From the IMG/VR virus record IMGVR_UViG_3300048839_000454, positions 1 through 37,914 of that record: a DNA stretch of 37,914 bases. One strand, written 5' to 3'. This document shows positions 4,414 to 37,914 of the stretch, piece by piece. Below the pieces are notes generated by a model that had not been told where the DNA came from, ran no database searches, and saw nothing but the letters and a program-made list of their open reading frames with translations. Numbering within the stretch: the stretch's first letter is position 1; every line of letters starts with the position of its first letter. This DNA comes from a virus. The position numbers and the translations under genes were made by a program.

Positions 4414-4508
4414 TGTCTGCCCCTTTGGGGAGAATGATCCAGCGAGCGACTGCCGAACCATCCTCCCCGGTCTCCCCAGCACCCTCGCTGCCGGGATTGG
4501 AATTTGCG

Positions 4509-4604
4509 TCACCGGGGCGGCGGGAAGAACCTCGGGGGCTCCTTTATCAACGCCTGTTGGATTGGGGTGGCGACAGGTTTGAAGAAGGAATGCCGCCCCG
4601 GTGA
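4509..4604 (-). promoter_or_regulatory. Leader inverted repeat of the leftward transcript
   Basis: Two perfect 13-bp arms, TCACCGGGGCGGC (4509-4521) and GCCGCCCCGGTGA (4592-4604), separated by 70 bases. They lie between the leftward promoter and the first leftward gene, so the 5' leader can fold into a long GC-rich stem. There is no T-run after it, so it is not a simple terminator. It may control antitermination or RNA stability. Confidence 0.6.
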
Positions 4605-4614
4605 TGAGTTAAAC

Positions 4615-4641
4615 CTAATTCACCGCCGGTGAATGTGTCAA
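4615..4641 (-). promoter_or_regulatory. Early leftward promoter (PL-like)
   Basis: On the minus strand a perfect TTGACA (-35) at 4641-4636 is followed, one base later, by the palindromic operator at 4618-4634, then AATTAG (weak -10) at 4620-4615. The layout is nearly identical to the rightward promoter at 4843-4870. The spacer is 15, slightly short. Binding of the operator would block RNA polymerase directly. Confidence 0.6.
4618..4634. promoter_or_regulatory. Operator OL1, perfect 17-bp palindrome
   Basis: ATTCACCGCCGGTGAAT, a perfect inverted repeat of ATTCACC around a three-base centre. It fills the -35/-10 spacer of the leftward promoter. Probably bound by the Cro-like protein at 4878. 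Confidence 0.75.
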
Positions 4642-4648
4642 ACAAAAA

Positions 4649-4665
4649 ATTCACCAATAGTGAAC
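4649..4665. promoter_or_regulatory. Operator OL2
   Basis: ATTCACCAATAGTGAAC, matching the ATTCACC-N3-GGTGAAT consensus with one half perfect and two changes in the other. It sits just upstream of the leftward -35. Confidence 0.65.
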
Positions 4666-4693
4666 TTAATGCACAACCATGTCTGATGGGGCA

Positions 4694-4710
4694 CATTGCT
4701 AACGGTGAAT
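4694..4710. promoter_or_regulatory. Weak operator / half-site
   Basis: CATTGCTAACGGTGAAT. The right half is a perfect GGTGAAT and the left half is poor. It lies between the two promoters. Confidence 0.4.
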
Positions 4711-4842
4711 TTTGGATGGTGGGCAGGCTGTGGCGACAATCAGCAGATCATCCGGGGGACGCGGCGGAGTTTCCCCTCAAACGCATCCATGCGGTGAAGC
4801 CATACCGCAGTGCAGAAAAAATTCATACTCACCAGTCGATAC

Positions 4843-4870
4843 TTGACATGCTTCACCAATGGTGAATTAT
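4843..4870 (+). promoter_or_regulatory. Early rightward promoter (PR-like), drives cro
   Basis: TTGACA at 4843-4848, a 16-bp spacer and AATTAT at 4865-4870. Only seven bases separate the -10 from the cro ATG at 4878, so the predicted transcript starts at or within a base or two of the ATG (leaderless mRNA). The operator at 4851-4867 fills the spacer. Confidence 0.65.
4851..4867. promoter_or_regulatory. Operator OR
   Basis: CTTCACCAATGGTGAAT, the same palindrome as OL1 apart from its first base and centre, lying between the -35 and -10 of the rightward promoter. Confidence 0.75.
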
Positions 4871-4877
4871 AGGGGGT

Positions 4878-5141
4878 ATGTCAAAGATGCGAATTTTGAG
4901 AACGGCTGACGATGTAGTTGCCGCCTTTGGAGGCACTAAGGCAGCAGCAGAATGGGCTGGGGTTGGTGAAAGCGCTGTCAGCAATTGGATTGCGCGGGGC
5001 TTCATTCCTCCTGGCTGGCATTTTCGGATGCATGAGCACTTCGAGGCGAGACAGTACCGGCTCGAAAGTACGGTCTTTGGTCATGTCGTTGATGAGCCGA
5101 ACCCTAAGCGCAGGACCGCTCCAATCTACAGCATGCGGTAA
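4878..5141 (+). CDS. Cro-like helix-turn-helix repressor
   Basis: An 87-residue protein. Residues 10-45 (DDVVAAFGGTKAAAEWAGVG, then SAVSNWIARGFIPPGWHF) form a Cro/YdaS-type helix-turn-helix, followed by a basic C-terminus. First gene on the early rightward transcript and directly next to four ATTCACC operators, so by position it is the Cro analogue and should shut down both early promoters. ATG at 4878 is almost at the predicted transcription start; an in-frame ATG at 4887 is an alternative with the GGGGG at 4872-4876 upstream. No partner repressor with a S24 cleavage domain is seen nearby. Confidence 0.85.
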   Translation: MSKMRILRTADDVVAAFGGTKAAAEWAGVGESAVSNWIARGFIPPGWHFRMHEHFEARQYRLESTVFGHVVDEPNPKRRTAPIYSMR

Positions 5142-5339
5142 GTAACCTGCCCTTCCGCCAGTTCCAGTTGCGTAGCGTGTTCAGCGCCCAGTGCCGGGCG
5201 CTCGCTGTTCTGTGCGCTGATTGCCCTTGGCGCATACGGTCTCCGAGAACGGTTCGAGCGCCTTCGCAGTGTGCGTACTTACCTAGAAACCGAGGTTGGC
5301 CAAGTGCCCTTCGATCTCTGGGCGTTTCCTCCCCAACTT

Positions 5340-5370
5340 CCCAAGGGGCTCCCTAGCTCCTTGGGCTTTT
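5340..5370 (+). terminator. Putative intrinsic terminator after cro
   Basis: CCCAAGG (5340-5346) pairs with CCTTGGG (5359-5365), with a 12-base loop, and is followed by CTTTT. A short T-run makes it a moderate terminator, in the position of tR1 between cro and the replication gene. Confidence 0.5.
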
Positions 5371-5389
5371 CGGAGAGGCCAGAAACATG

Positions 5390-5420
5390 ACGGCCCCGCT
5401 CGGTCAAGGAGCAGGGCCGT
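5390..5420 (+). other. Stable hairpin upstream of replication gene
   Basis: ACGGCCC (5390-5396) pairs with GGGCCGT (5414-5420). Inside it GCTC pairs with GAGC around a seven-base loop, so the stem is about 11 bp with one mismatch. No T-run follows on either strand. Possible antitermination or RNA-processing element. Confidence 0.5.
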
Positions 5421-5520
5421 TGGATGAATGCAGACGCTCTTACAAGGGGCACACGTCACGCGACGCAGACAGACTGGATTGAGTACGCAACACCTTACGC
5501 GACAACCAATGGTGATCTTC

Positions 5521-6381
5521 ATGGCACAAAATTCAAGCAAGACTATGGCGTGGTGCCGCCTTTGGCACGACATGCCCACAGATCCTAAGTTCCGTGTGGT
5601 CGCAAAGCGCGCCGGGCGTCCGACTGCGGAAGTTTTGGCCGTCTTCACAGCCATGCTCGCCAATGCGTCCGCCAACGAAGACGAGCGTGGGACGTTGCGC
5701 GGATGGTGCCATGAGGACATTGCAGCGGCGCTCGATATGGAGCCGGAACACGCCGAAGCCATCTTCAAGGCCATGCAAGGCAAGCTGCTTGAAGGTGATC
5801 AGTTGACCGGCTGGGAGCGCCGCCAACCGAAGCGTGAACGCGAAGACAATTCCGCCCCGCGCGTGGCTGCGCACCGTGAACGGAAGCAGAATGTAACGCC
5901 ATGTAACGCCAGCGCCGACCCTGTAACGCCATGTAACGCCCTAGAGGAGAGGAGAGAAGAGAAGAGGAGAGAAGAGAAGTGCAGTAGCGCGCGCGCGGAG
6001 CGCACGGACGCTGCGACGCTGCCTGAACGGTTCATGGATCGCATGATCGAAGCCGCAGGCGACTGCCTTGCAAACCCATGCAACGCCCAAGGCCTGCTGA
6101 CCGAAGCCACGCCGGTGATGTGGATCGAAAACGGCTGCGACTTCGAGCGCGACGTTCTGCCAACGCTGCGCGCGGCAGGCGTCAGCCGCAAGGGCAAGCG
6201 CATCCACACCTGGAGCTATTTCACGAACATGGTCGCAGAAACCAGGGCCCGTCGGCTGGCTGGAATGCCAGCAATCCAGATCCCGAAACCCAAGAGTAGC
6301 AGCTACACGCCAACGCCAAGACGGGACCGGGAGCCAACGCGTGAAGAACTTGACCGTATCGCGATGGAGTTCATGAATTGA
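5521..6381 (+). CDS. Replication initiation protein (O/DnaT-like, winged-helix N-terminus)
   Basis: A 286-residue protein. The N-terminal 100 residues (MAWCRLWHDMPTDPKFRVVA, then AEVLAVFTAMLANASANEDE and HEDIAAALDM) resemble the helix-turn-helix start of phage O/DnaT-like replication proteins. A charged low-complexity middle (EERREEKRREEK) is followed by a C-terminal half with WSYFTNMVAETRARRLAG. It should bind the iterons that lie inside its own coding sequence and load the host helicase. I chose ATG at 5521 (weak GGTGAT upstream); ATG 5509 and a start at 5428 are also in frame. First gene after the cro terminator; the next gene overlaps its stop. Confidence 0.72.
   Translation: MAQNSSKTMAWCRLWHDMPTDPKFRVVAKRAGRPTAEVLAVFTAMLANASANEDERGTLRGWCHEDIAAALDMEPEHAEAIFKAMQGKLLEGDQLTGWERRQPKREREDNSAPRVAAHRERKQNVTPCNASADPVTPCNALEERREEKRREEKCSSARAERTDAATLPERFMDRMIEAAGDCLANPCNAQGLLTEATPVMWIENGCDFERDVLPTLRAAGVSRKGKRIHTWSYFTNMVAETRARRLAGMPAIQIPKPKSSSYTPTPRRDREPTREELDRIAMEFMN
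5891..5940. other. Iteron cluster, probable replication origin
   Basis: Four copies of TGTAACGCC at 5892, 5902, 5922 and 5932. They form two head-to-tail pairs with 10-bp spacing inside a pair and 30 bp between pairs, so all lie on the same face of the helix. A variant, ATGCAACGCC, occurs at 6078. They sit inside the replication gene, as the lambda iterons sit inside O. Confidence 0.65.
5944..5979. repeat. Purine-only tract with 15-bp tandem repeat
   Basis: Thirty-six consecutive purines directly after the iterons. AGGAGAGAAGAGAAG occurs twice in tandem (5950-5964 and 5965-5979). In the protein it encodes repeated REEK-type residues. The position next to iterons matches an origin's easily melted or triplex-forming element. 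Confidence 0.7.
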
Positions 6382-6767
6382 CGCTCGAAACGATGACCCC
6401 ATCGCTTGCCGACTACAAGGCCCGGTGCTTCGTCAACGGGGTGCGCCGGCACGCCAGAAGCGGAAACCTAGAGCCCGCAAGTGGGGAGTTTTCGGAACGC
6501 TTCCTGTCGCATCCGTGGGTTCGCGAAAGCATCACGGAGGGCTGGGGGCGTGAGCTTCGCGGGCACCTGATCCAGGCTGCGAAAATTCGCCTGATGAGAG
6601 GCGAGCCCATAGGCGACGTCGGAAATTTGATGCCGTCACGGGAATGGGTAGCTGCCGCCAAGACCAACGCAGAGCATTACCGGAAAGCAGCGGCTTGGCG
6701 CGCATCTCAGGGAGCCCCGTTGATCGATAGTGTTGGCCTCATGCAGAGATTGGGAGTTGTCCTATGA
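6378..6767 (+). CDS. Hypothetical protein, 129 aa
   Basis: Starts at TTG 6378, overlapping the replication gene's TGA, with GGAG eight bases upstream; ATG at 6393 (MTPSLADYKARCF) is an alternative. It has a basic helical body with SREWVAAAKTNAEHYRKAAA toward the C-terminus. It ends in a four-base overlap with the GapR-like gene. I do not recognise a domain. Its position beside the initiator suggests a replication-accessory role, by context only. Confidence 0.65.
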   Translation: MTLETMTPSLADYKARCFVNGVRRHARSGNLEPASGEFSERFLSHPWVRESITEGWGRELRGHLIQAAKIRLMRGEPIGDVGNLMPSREWVAAAKTNAEHYRKAAAWRASQGAPLIDSVGLMQRLGVVL

Positions 6768-7033
6768 GCACCACCCGCATCAAGGCTCTGGCTGAGGATC
6801 TGGCCAAGATCCTGTCCGAGATCGACGGCTTGAAGGAACAGGCCAAGGCCATCGTTGAAACCGCCAAGGCCGATGGCCTCAACACGAAGGCGCTCCGCAA
6901 GGTCGCCAAGGAACTCATCACGGAGTCCGCCAAGCTTGAACGCCAGTACGAGGACGAGGAGCAGCTCGACATGTTCCGCGCCGCCGTCGGCATTCACAAC
7001 CGGAAAAACCTCATGATGGAGGCAGCAGAGTGA
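6764..7033 (+). CDS. GapR-family DNA-binding protein (DUF2312-like)
   Basis: An 89-residue coiled protein. RIKALAEDLAKILSEIDGLK, then KAIVETAKADGLNTKALRKV, and an acidic YEDEEQLDMFRAAVG end match the layout of DUF2312/GapR. GapR is an alphaproteobacterial protein that binds overtwisted AT-rich DNA ahead of replication forks. Phage copies may protect or reshape the replicating genome. Placement two genes after the initiator fits. It starts at ATG 6764 in ATGA overlap with the upstream stop. Confidence 0.82.
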   Translation: MSTTRIKALAEDLAKILSEIDGLKEQAKAIVETAKADGLNTKALRKVAKELITESAKLERQYEDEEQLDMFRAAVGIHNRKNLMMEAAE

Positions 7034-7593
7034 CGACGTGTTGTATTCCTGGCTGCATCAGAACGACAAGGGCGCGTGGCTACTGCTACGCGCATTATAT
7101 CAGGTGGTGGAAGTACGGAGACCCGCTTGCAGGACGGACGCTACAGGGTGATCCGGATGCTGCTCTGGCGGACGCTATAGAAAGCAACACAGACGAATGC
7201 ATCATTTGGAAGTATCACATTTGTTCAAATGGATACGGGAGAATAACGAGAAACCGCAAGCCTTGCTCTGTAAACCGCCTAGTTTGTCAGATCATGCACG
7301 GCGATCCTCCGTCCGAGTACCACCATGCCGCGCATTCATGCGGGGTAAGGTCTTGCTGCAATCCGAGGCACATTAGGTGGGCAACGCCGAAGGAAAACAA
7401 CGCCGACAAAATACTTCATGGCACCGTCCAGCGTGGCGAAAAAGGGCCGCTAGCAAGGCTATCAGAAGCCGACGTGCGCAGGATTTTAATGAGTTCTGAA
7501 ACTCAGAGGTCCATTGCGAAACAGTATGGGGTCACTCAAGCGACGATCAGCGCCATCAAGACGAAGAAGATTTGGAGGCACTTGCATGAATGA
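7030..7593 (+). CDS. HNH homing-type endonuclease with zinc finger and HTH
   Basis: A 187-residue protein. Its N-terminal zinc finger (CCIPGC, then ARGYCYAHYIRWWKYGDP) is followed by an HNH core (HHAAHSCGVRSCCNPRHIRW, residues about 98-117) and a C-terminal helix-turn-helix (EADVRRILMS, then SIAKQYGVTQATISAIK). It starts at GTG 7030, GTGA-overlapping the GapR-like stop. It has the same architecture as the endonuclease at 21545. Such proteins cut DNA lacking their own gene and spread between phages. The base composition is a little AT-richer than the flanks. Confidence 0.87.
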   Translation: MTTCCIPGCIRTTRARGYCYAHYIRWWKYGDPLAGRTLQGDPDAALADAIESNTDECIIWKYHICSNGYGRITRNRKPCSVNRLVCQIMHGDPPSEYHHAAHSCGVRSCCNPRHIRWATPKENNADKILHGTVQRGEKGPLARLSEADVRRILMSSETQRSIAKQYGVTQATISAIKTKKIWRHLHE

Positions 7594-36783: not shown

Positions 36784-37914
36784 GTTCGCACCTCTGGGCT
36801 TTGATAATCGGCTACGTGATCAAAGCCGTATGTCCAAGCTTGAGCCTGAATTGCGGTCTTCATTTCTTTCGGAACCGGCAGCGCGAATTTCCGGCCTGTA
36901 CCGCATACAACGCGGAGAAACCGCTCATCCCCGGCGTCCGGAAGGCTCACTTCGACAAGCGTTCCCACTTGAGGATCGTCATCCTCATCAATGATGCGTG
37001 CTTTAAGCTCGGAGAGAATTCGATCCCAGCCGATGATTTCGCAGGCAGCGCGCCGTTGCTCGATGTTGGGCCACGTCAGAGCGGTCTTGGCCGTCAGATT
37101 TTTCTTGTCCTCGATCCACTCGGCCGGGATGGAAACACCGTGCCAGTGATAGAGAGCCCAGCCGTCGCGCCAGCGATGGCTAGGACCATTCTCGCAATGC
37201 GGTCTGTTCTGATCGTCAACCAGCAATACGTCCGGGAAATCGGACACAATGCAAAATTCTTCGTGCAGAACACGGAATGGCGCAGCGATAGCGCAACGCT
37301 CCCAGGCAGAGTATTTCTGGTACTCTGGCAGCCTAAGTCCGATGATGTCACGCATTGCAGTTAGATAGCAATCGTAGGCCGCCCAATAGGCACCACCCTG
37401 ATAGACGCTACTCCATCTCACTGCGCAATTTAAACCAAAATTACCAGCCAGATCGAAGCATGCCTGAGCCGCGTTGCGAGCCGCGTTGTCAACCGCGTTG
37501 CGAGCCGCGTTGTCAACCGCGTTGCGAGCCGCGTTGTAAACCGCGTTGTCAACCGCGTTGTAAGCCGCGTTGTAAACCGCGTTGTCAACCGCGTTGCGAA
37601 CCGTGTTGCAAACCGCGTTGTAAACCGCGTTGCGAGCCGCGTTGTCAACCGCGTTGTCAACCGCGTTGTAAACCGCGTTGTCAACCGCGTTGCGAGCCGC
37701 GTTGTCAACCGCGTTGCGAGCCGCGTCGTCAACCGCGTTGTAAACCGCGTTGTAAGCCGCGTTGCGAGCCGCGTTGTCAACCGCGTTGTCAACCGCGTTG
37801 TAAACCGCGTTGCGAGCCGCGTTGTAAACCGCGTTGTAAACCGCGTTGCGAGCCGCGTCGTCAACCGCGTTGTAAGCCGCGTTGCGAGCCGCGTTGTAAA
37901 CCGCGTTGTCAACC
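36780..37914 (-). CDS. DUF6745 repeat protein, C-terminal part (continues at left end)
   Basis: Continuation of the gene that starts at 586. Thirty-seven more tetrapeptides (148 residues) run from the window end to 37469; then a 229-residue C-terminal domain. CAVRWSSVYQGGAYWAAYDC follows the repeats. PHCENGPSHRWRDGWALYHW and HGVSIPAEWI, then QRRAACEIIGWDRIL, are the DUF6745 landmarks; RFLRVVCGTGRKFALPVPKE lies near the end. The frame written as TTRL in this array is a shadow. ORF 36780-37421 alone would miss its true start. Function unknown. Confidence 0.87.
   Translation of the reverse strand, partial: VDNAVYNAARNAAYNAVDDAARNAVYNAVYNAARNAVYNAVDNAVDNAARNAAYNAVYNAVDDAARNAVDNAARNAVDNAVYNAVDNAVDNAARNAVYNAVCNTVRNAVDNAVYNAAYNAVDNAVYNAARNAVDNAARNAVDNAARNAAQACFDLAGNFGLNCAVRWSSVYQGGAYWAAYDCYLTAMRDIIGLRLPEYQKYSAWERCAIAAPFRVLHEEFCIVSDFPDVLLVDDQNRPHCENGPSHRWRDGWALYHWHGVSIPAEWIEDKKNLTAKTALTWPNIEQRRAACEIIGWDRILSELKARIIDEDDDPQVGTLVEVSLPDAGDERFLRVVCGTGRKFALPVPKEMKTAIQAQAWTYGFDHVADYQSPEVRT
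37469..37914. repeat. 12-bp tandem repeat array, right contig end
   Basis: Thirty-seven exact-period copies of the CCGCGTTGNNNN unit (37469-37912) plus terminal CC. Two divergent copies occur at 37589 (ends CGAA) and 37601 (CCGTGTTGCAAA). The terminal CC equals the first CC of the window, consistent with a 2-bp overlap at circle closure. Confidence 0.97.

Follow-up and report, generated by a model that had tools for sequence, protein, structure and literature searches.

A probable phage replication origin of phased iterons and a purine tract embedded in its own initiator gene

Comparison of related sequences makes it very probable that positions 5891-5979 of the viral record IMGVR_UViG_3300048839_000454 form a phage theta-replication origin located inside the gene of its own initiator. 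The window is the whole stretch of DNA analysed, 37,914 nt, and all coordinates refer to it. Origins inside initiator genes are a well-known general kind, and the original prediction had placed one here, with the iterons and the purine run both inside the initiator open reading frame (ORF). All of these elements fall within 5521-6381 (Table 1). The placement is supported by homology of the gene product to replication initiation proteins, and by linker iterons and a tract that are conserved at the DNA level in homologues.

Table 1 Features of the initiator gene and its putative origin (window coordinates).
Feature	Coordinates	Strand	Basis or remark
Gene of the initiator (replisome organiser); 286 aa counted from ATG 5521, reading frame already open at 5428	5521..6381	+	phrog_3729, phrog_21423
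Predicted winged-helix-like DNA-binding domain, residues 11-103	5551..5829	+	AlphaFold2, pLDDT mostly 90-98
Basic helix, residues 111-124, ..RVAAHRERK..	5851..5892	+	conservation, model
Iteron 1, TGTAACGCC	5892..5900	+	exact copy
Iteron 2, TGTAACGCC	5902..5910	+	exact copy
Iteron 3, TGTAACGCC	5922..5930	+	exact copy
Iteron 4, TGTAACGCC	5932..5940	+	exact copy
All-purine tract, 37 nt, 5/15-bp repeat, encodes EERREEKRREEK; putative unwinding region	5943..5979	+	
C-terminal part; putative helicase or loader contact	5980..6378	+	residues 171-247 resemble 'primosomal protein', Sinorhizobium phage phiLM21
Degenerate iteron-pair-like copy TGCAAACCCATGCAACGCC	6069..6087	+	79% over 19 nt, weak
Downstream ORF of 129 aa that overlaps the initiator gene; its position alone makes it a candidate helicase loader	6378..6767	+	

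The iterons start 10, 20 and 10 bp apart, and the second pair is offset from the first by exactly 30 bp, which confirms the 10-bp and 30-bp phasing that had been predicted. The 37.9-kb window holds four exact copies of TGTAACGCC, both strands counted, where 0.26 are expected, and none of 100 dinucleotide shuffles reached four. Tandem Repeats Finder reports a 10-bp array over 5891-5940. The first iteron of each pair is translated as V-T-P and the second as C-N-A; one 9-bp sequence thus passes through two frames and yields different peptides. The pair-like copy further into the gene may be a chance occurrence.

Directly after the iterons lies an unbroken run of 37 purines, one more than the 36 first proposed, in which Tandem Repeats Finder recovered the predicted 15-bp repeat (2.5 copies) as well as a 5-bp unit (7.4 copies). 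No other purine or pyrimidine run in the window comes close, the runner-up being 17 nt, and the longest such run across 200 first-order Markov simulations was 20. All four of its Arg codons are AGR (AGG or AGA), compared with 2 of 29 elsewhere in the initiator gene and 13.7% in 15 other genes of the window. Unwinding elements are usually AT-rich; this tract is about half G and so is not.

The initiator matches phrog_3729, annotated 'replication initiation protein', over its N-terminal residues 11-125 (E 2.9e-26, 93.5 bits), and phrog_21423 (E 4.5e-31). A Pfam search gave no family at E 0.1, with the gathering score of PF09681 not reached, and the PDB sequences held no match. The AlphaFold2 model, built from 78 sequences, places the basic helix at 111-124, beyond which the residues encoded by the tract form a long helix. 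The R and V of its RV motif and a later R, encoded just before the iterons, are invariant across 17 homologues. VIA-align of the N-terminal domain retrieved winged helices of the CRP, LexA and MarR types, all weakly (Z at most 7.7), and the RepA-type plasmid initiators 4pql, 4pt7 and 5kbj at Z 5.6-6.0 but with rmsd 5.7-6.6; Foldseek with the initiator model found no significant match. The CRP, LexA and MarR matches lend weak backing to a DNA-binding role of the predicted domain. The C-terminal part, in which residues 171-247 resemble the phiLM21 protein (tblastn E 2e-4, 35%), may contact a helicase or loader.

By analogy with ori-lambda, a mapped origin with the same plan (PMC3349717), and with SPP1 oriL and its initiator gp38 (PMC6316719), we infer an initiator-embedded iteron origin together with its steps, from initiator binding through DNA opening to helicase loading. 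Initiator copies would occupy the four TGTAACGCC iterons, making contact by the N-terminal winged-helix-like domain and the adjoining basic helix. With iteron centres 10, 20 and 10 bp apart, the four sites would all point to roughly the same side of the double helix. Once assembled, the complex could strain and open the neighbouring purine tract, which is strand-asymmetric, and the helicase or its loader would be recruited by the C-terminal part.

We searched IMG/VR with the DNA pattern TGTAACGCNNTGTAACGC, which matched at least 120 stretches; the reversed pattern matched 33 in the whole collection, several of which are true arrays that overlap the pattern. Among the matches listed, 64 of 68 arrays in long ORFs belong to one BLAST-connected initiator group, and a strong purine tract follows the array in 80% of 54 distinct initiator-ORF cases versus 0 of 52 elsewhere (p 1e-19).

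Homologues were also collected by protein, so that the repeats played no part in selecting their loci. The window protein alone retrieved no relatives from viral contigs, and alignments of homologues were needed as the query; searches of IMG/VR and bacterial genomes then gave 169 usable loci and 146 non-redundant sequences including the window. The bacterial genomes include Sphingobium, Novosphingobium, Pseudomonas, Serratia, Escherichia, Bordetella and Variovorax, and tblastn of phage records revealed relatives of the N-terminal domain in Pseudomonas, Escherichia, Aeromonas, cyanophage and environmental phages; in several of these the linker contains an array, for example TGTCACGCAATGTCACGCAGAGTCACGCAATGTCACGC and then TAGATAAAGATACAGA. 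The common order is a winged-helix-like domain, a basic RVxxHRERK motif, (G/C)NNACGC repeats in 10-bp phase, and a low-complexity, mostly purine tract. An absence of iterons from close relatives had been named as a finding that would refute the proposal; relatives do carry them, often of another sequence class.

Of 146 linkers, 98 contain at least three copies of (G/C)N(A/C/G)ACGC in 10-bp phase; the corresponding rates are 8.8% after resampling of codons with an unchanged protein and 0.16% in control windows elsewhere in these loci. With a looser core, copies are distributed over the three reading frames as 189, 183 and 177, and they are most often spaced 10 bp apart (294). This equal spread over frames indicates that the DNA, rather than the protein, is selected. 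Self-similarity at lag 10 is 0.443 versus 0.335 in the protein-preserving null, an excess far above that at other lags. Roughly 16% of homologues do not have even two strict-core repeats in phase.

The best purine window of the homologues begins a median of 13 nt past the last iteron. Windows of at least 90% purine are present in 41% of linkers, versus 13% under the codon null and 0.5% in control windows, and AGR accounts for 124 of 169 Arg codons inside the tract versus 365 of 2672 outside. Of the 31 linkers that fall short of 80% purine, most still have a CAGATACAGATA-type tract on visual inspection. Two initiators (L117 and L126) have a C/A-rich tract (e.g. CCTAACATAACAATACC) rather than a purine-rich one, and L254, L257 and L304 appear to have neither iterons nor tract. 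These regularities offer a sequence rule for locating origins in a large class of temperate phages and prophages, where initiator annotation goes no further than 'replisome organizer' or 'hypothetical'.

Hairpins whose stems measure 7 bp or more, located 40-80 nt past the last iteron, were counted 40 times in 139 homologues where the protein-preserving null predicts 4. They combine a variable stem with a recurrent TAAC, TAAA or TGAC loop (e.g. L302, L307 and L178). The window lacks this hairpin, and its equivalent segment folds no better than shuffles. In three other linkers (L290, L039 and L366), an in-frame HNH-endonuclease-like segment immediately follows the DNA-binding domain, beside the putative origin.

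The repeats could instead be an autoregulatory operator through which the initiator represses its own gene while replication starts elsewhere. One distinct subfamily (L014, L119 and L116) does have iteron-like arrays that overlap or precede the initiator start codon, and some initiators may also regulate themselves. The region upstream of the window initiator, however, contains no copy of TGTAACGCC, and within 300 bp upstream of the homologous initiators the own-class 7-mer was observed in 9 of 137 cases against 9.7 expected. This lack of enrichment argues against a promoter operator, and repression would leave the conserved adjacent tract unexplained; we judge this alternative improbable.

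A second alternative, that the repeats are a by-product of a low-complexity charged linker that grows by replication slippage, draws on the tract, which encodes the predicted helical EERREEKRREEK and has repeats of 6 or 15 bp, multiples of three such as slippage within a gene would leave. It fits the iterons poorly, because their 10-bp unit is not a multiple of three and all three frames are used, and the arrays are lost when codons are resampled with the protein preserved. Nor does it account for tract Arg codons that are AGR where the rest of the gene uses CGN, or for the L030 linker, in which the tract lies on the opposite strand as TCTTTATCTGAATC repeats and encodes SESLSESL instead of charged repeats. 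Slippage as the source is thus very unlikely. With the segment read as an origin, odd low-complexity linkers (EEKRREEK, DTDTDTD, SESLSESL) would be explained as translated DNA elements.

The homologues carry several core classes, among them CGAACG, GTCACG, GTAACG, GAAACG and GGAACG, and the genetic code limits how these can be arrayed. Among runs of two or more, the stop-bearing classes (TGTAACG, TGAAACG and GTGACG) extend beyond two copies at exactly 10 bp in 0 of 31, whereas the stop-free classes reach three or four copies in 56 of 93 (p 2e-10). A third TGTAACG at 10 bp would put TAA in frame, which accounts for the 10/20/10 layout of the window: the 20-bp jump returns to the reading frame of the first copy without leaving the 10-bp phase, so that a pair, a gap and a second pair are allowed by coding. 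The coding frame and a DNA-binding array are thus in measurable conflict, with stop codons capping the number of 10-bp repeats. The iteron class is common to 34% of pairs whose domains are 60-70% identical and to 81-89% of pairs above 70%. No clear specificity position emerged from the covariation between this class and the residues of the domain, an analysis that descent confounds. The many sequence classes provide a natural data set on changes of initiator DNA specificity.

A comparable arrangement was found in PF09681 (Phage_rep_org_N/TIGR01714), with loci found by protein from six seed proteins, all from contigs located by their TGTAACGC pairs, a possible source of bias toward that class. 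The palindrome GT[AC]ACGT[TG]AC, followed by a tract, is present in 50 of 60 non-redundant linkers of this family, and half-sites number 4.3 per 200 bp in the linker versus 0.085 outside the gene. As in the window, GTAACG half-sites and then a GATATAGATAAAGAAG-type tract occupy the same place in the gene; PF09681 linkers have mostly palindromic GTAACGTTAC sites along with half-sites, whereas the window has direct half-sites only. Alignment of the N-terminal domains of the two families with hhalign (78.5% probability over 107 columns) suggests common descent. We regard it as an evenly balanced possibility that a single ancestral origin module, consisting of a winged-helix initiator, (G/C)NNACGC half-sites in the linker and a melting tract, is common to phages of Proteobacteria and the PF09681 phages in one very large superfamily, with fast class switching and the genetic code limiting the arrays. 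Such switching of half-site class may be likened to plasmid incompatibility groups. If this is true, specificity determinants and origin positions would become predictable for hundreds of phages.

The closest known plan is that of lambda, where iterons and then an A-rich, purine-biased segment lie between the parts of gene O that encode the DNA-binding and C-terminal parts of the initiator (PMC3349717, PMC7466680). The annotated lambda iterons and A-rich segment sit at the equivalent place, in keeping with the earlier suggestion that the plan of lambda O is repeated here in an unrelated sequence. The iterons of lambda measure 18 bp, are spaced about 20-24 bp apart and are unrelated in sequence to the 9-bp TGTAACGCC at 10-bp spacing, and no P-type loader was recognised beside the window initiator, unlike in lambda. 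Homology to lambda O itself was rejected, since hhalign finds no similarity (probability 0.1%, E 0.72).

Two further phages resemble the window. By its description, oriL of SPP1 combines direct repeats and an AT-rich unwinding region inside gene 38, which encodes the replisome organizer gp38; SPP1 differs in its second site, oriR (PMC6316719). In the Francisella phage KIRK, four repeats and an AT-rich region are predicted inside the replication gene fhv_0043, and the authors compare it with lambda; this is a single-genome prediction with no cross-family analysis (PMC7924643). Inspection of the TP901-1 rep linker showed no GTAACG array. In the literature, with thin coverage of subscription papers, we found no description of the TGTAACGCC repeat or the origin of the window family, nor of its breadth, the half-site common to both families, class switching or the stop-codon limit on arrays.

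A third alternative, in which the main origin lies elsewhere and the initiator binds this segment as a second region for a different step, for instance a switch to concatemer synthesis, has a precedent in the two initiator-bound regions of SPP1 and a possible parallel in non-coding iteron-plus-tract modules near terminase genes in L096 and L108, but the window contains no second iteron cluster, and we give this reading very little credence. Those modules, at about 5550 in L096 and about 4200 in L108 (L127 has one also), consist of an iteron array and then a repeat tract, in loci where no initiator was detected; they are possibly second sites or satellites.

In the window, cumulative GC skew reaches its minimum at 4492 and AT skew at 5370, near but not at 5891-5979. 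Both minima coincide with a switch in gene direction, which is why GC skew was set aside as origin evidence. No helicase or loader was recognised adjoining the initiator gene, and the overlapping downstream ORF had no match in Pfam, PHROG or tblastn of phages. Two genes downstream of the initiator, at 6764-7033, is a GapR-like DNA-binding protein (PF10073, E 1.7e-7, above the gathering score). Rfam gave no family in 4500-7500. An inverted repeat with a 12-bp stem (ACGGCCC...GGGCCGT) lies at 5390-5420, about 100 bp upstream of the initiator start. Finally, the two ends of the record (1-284 and 37469-37914) lie in the same kind of 12-bp tandem array (CCGCGTTGTMAA), with about 24 copies at the first end and about 37 at the second. 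The molecule may therefore be a circle that was opened within a single array.
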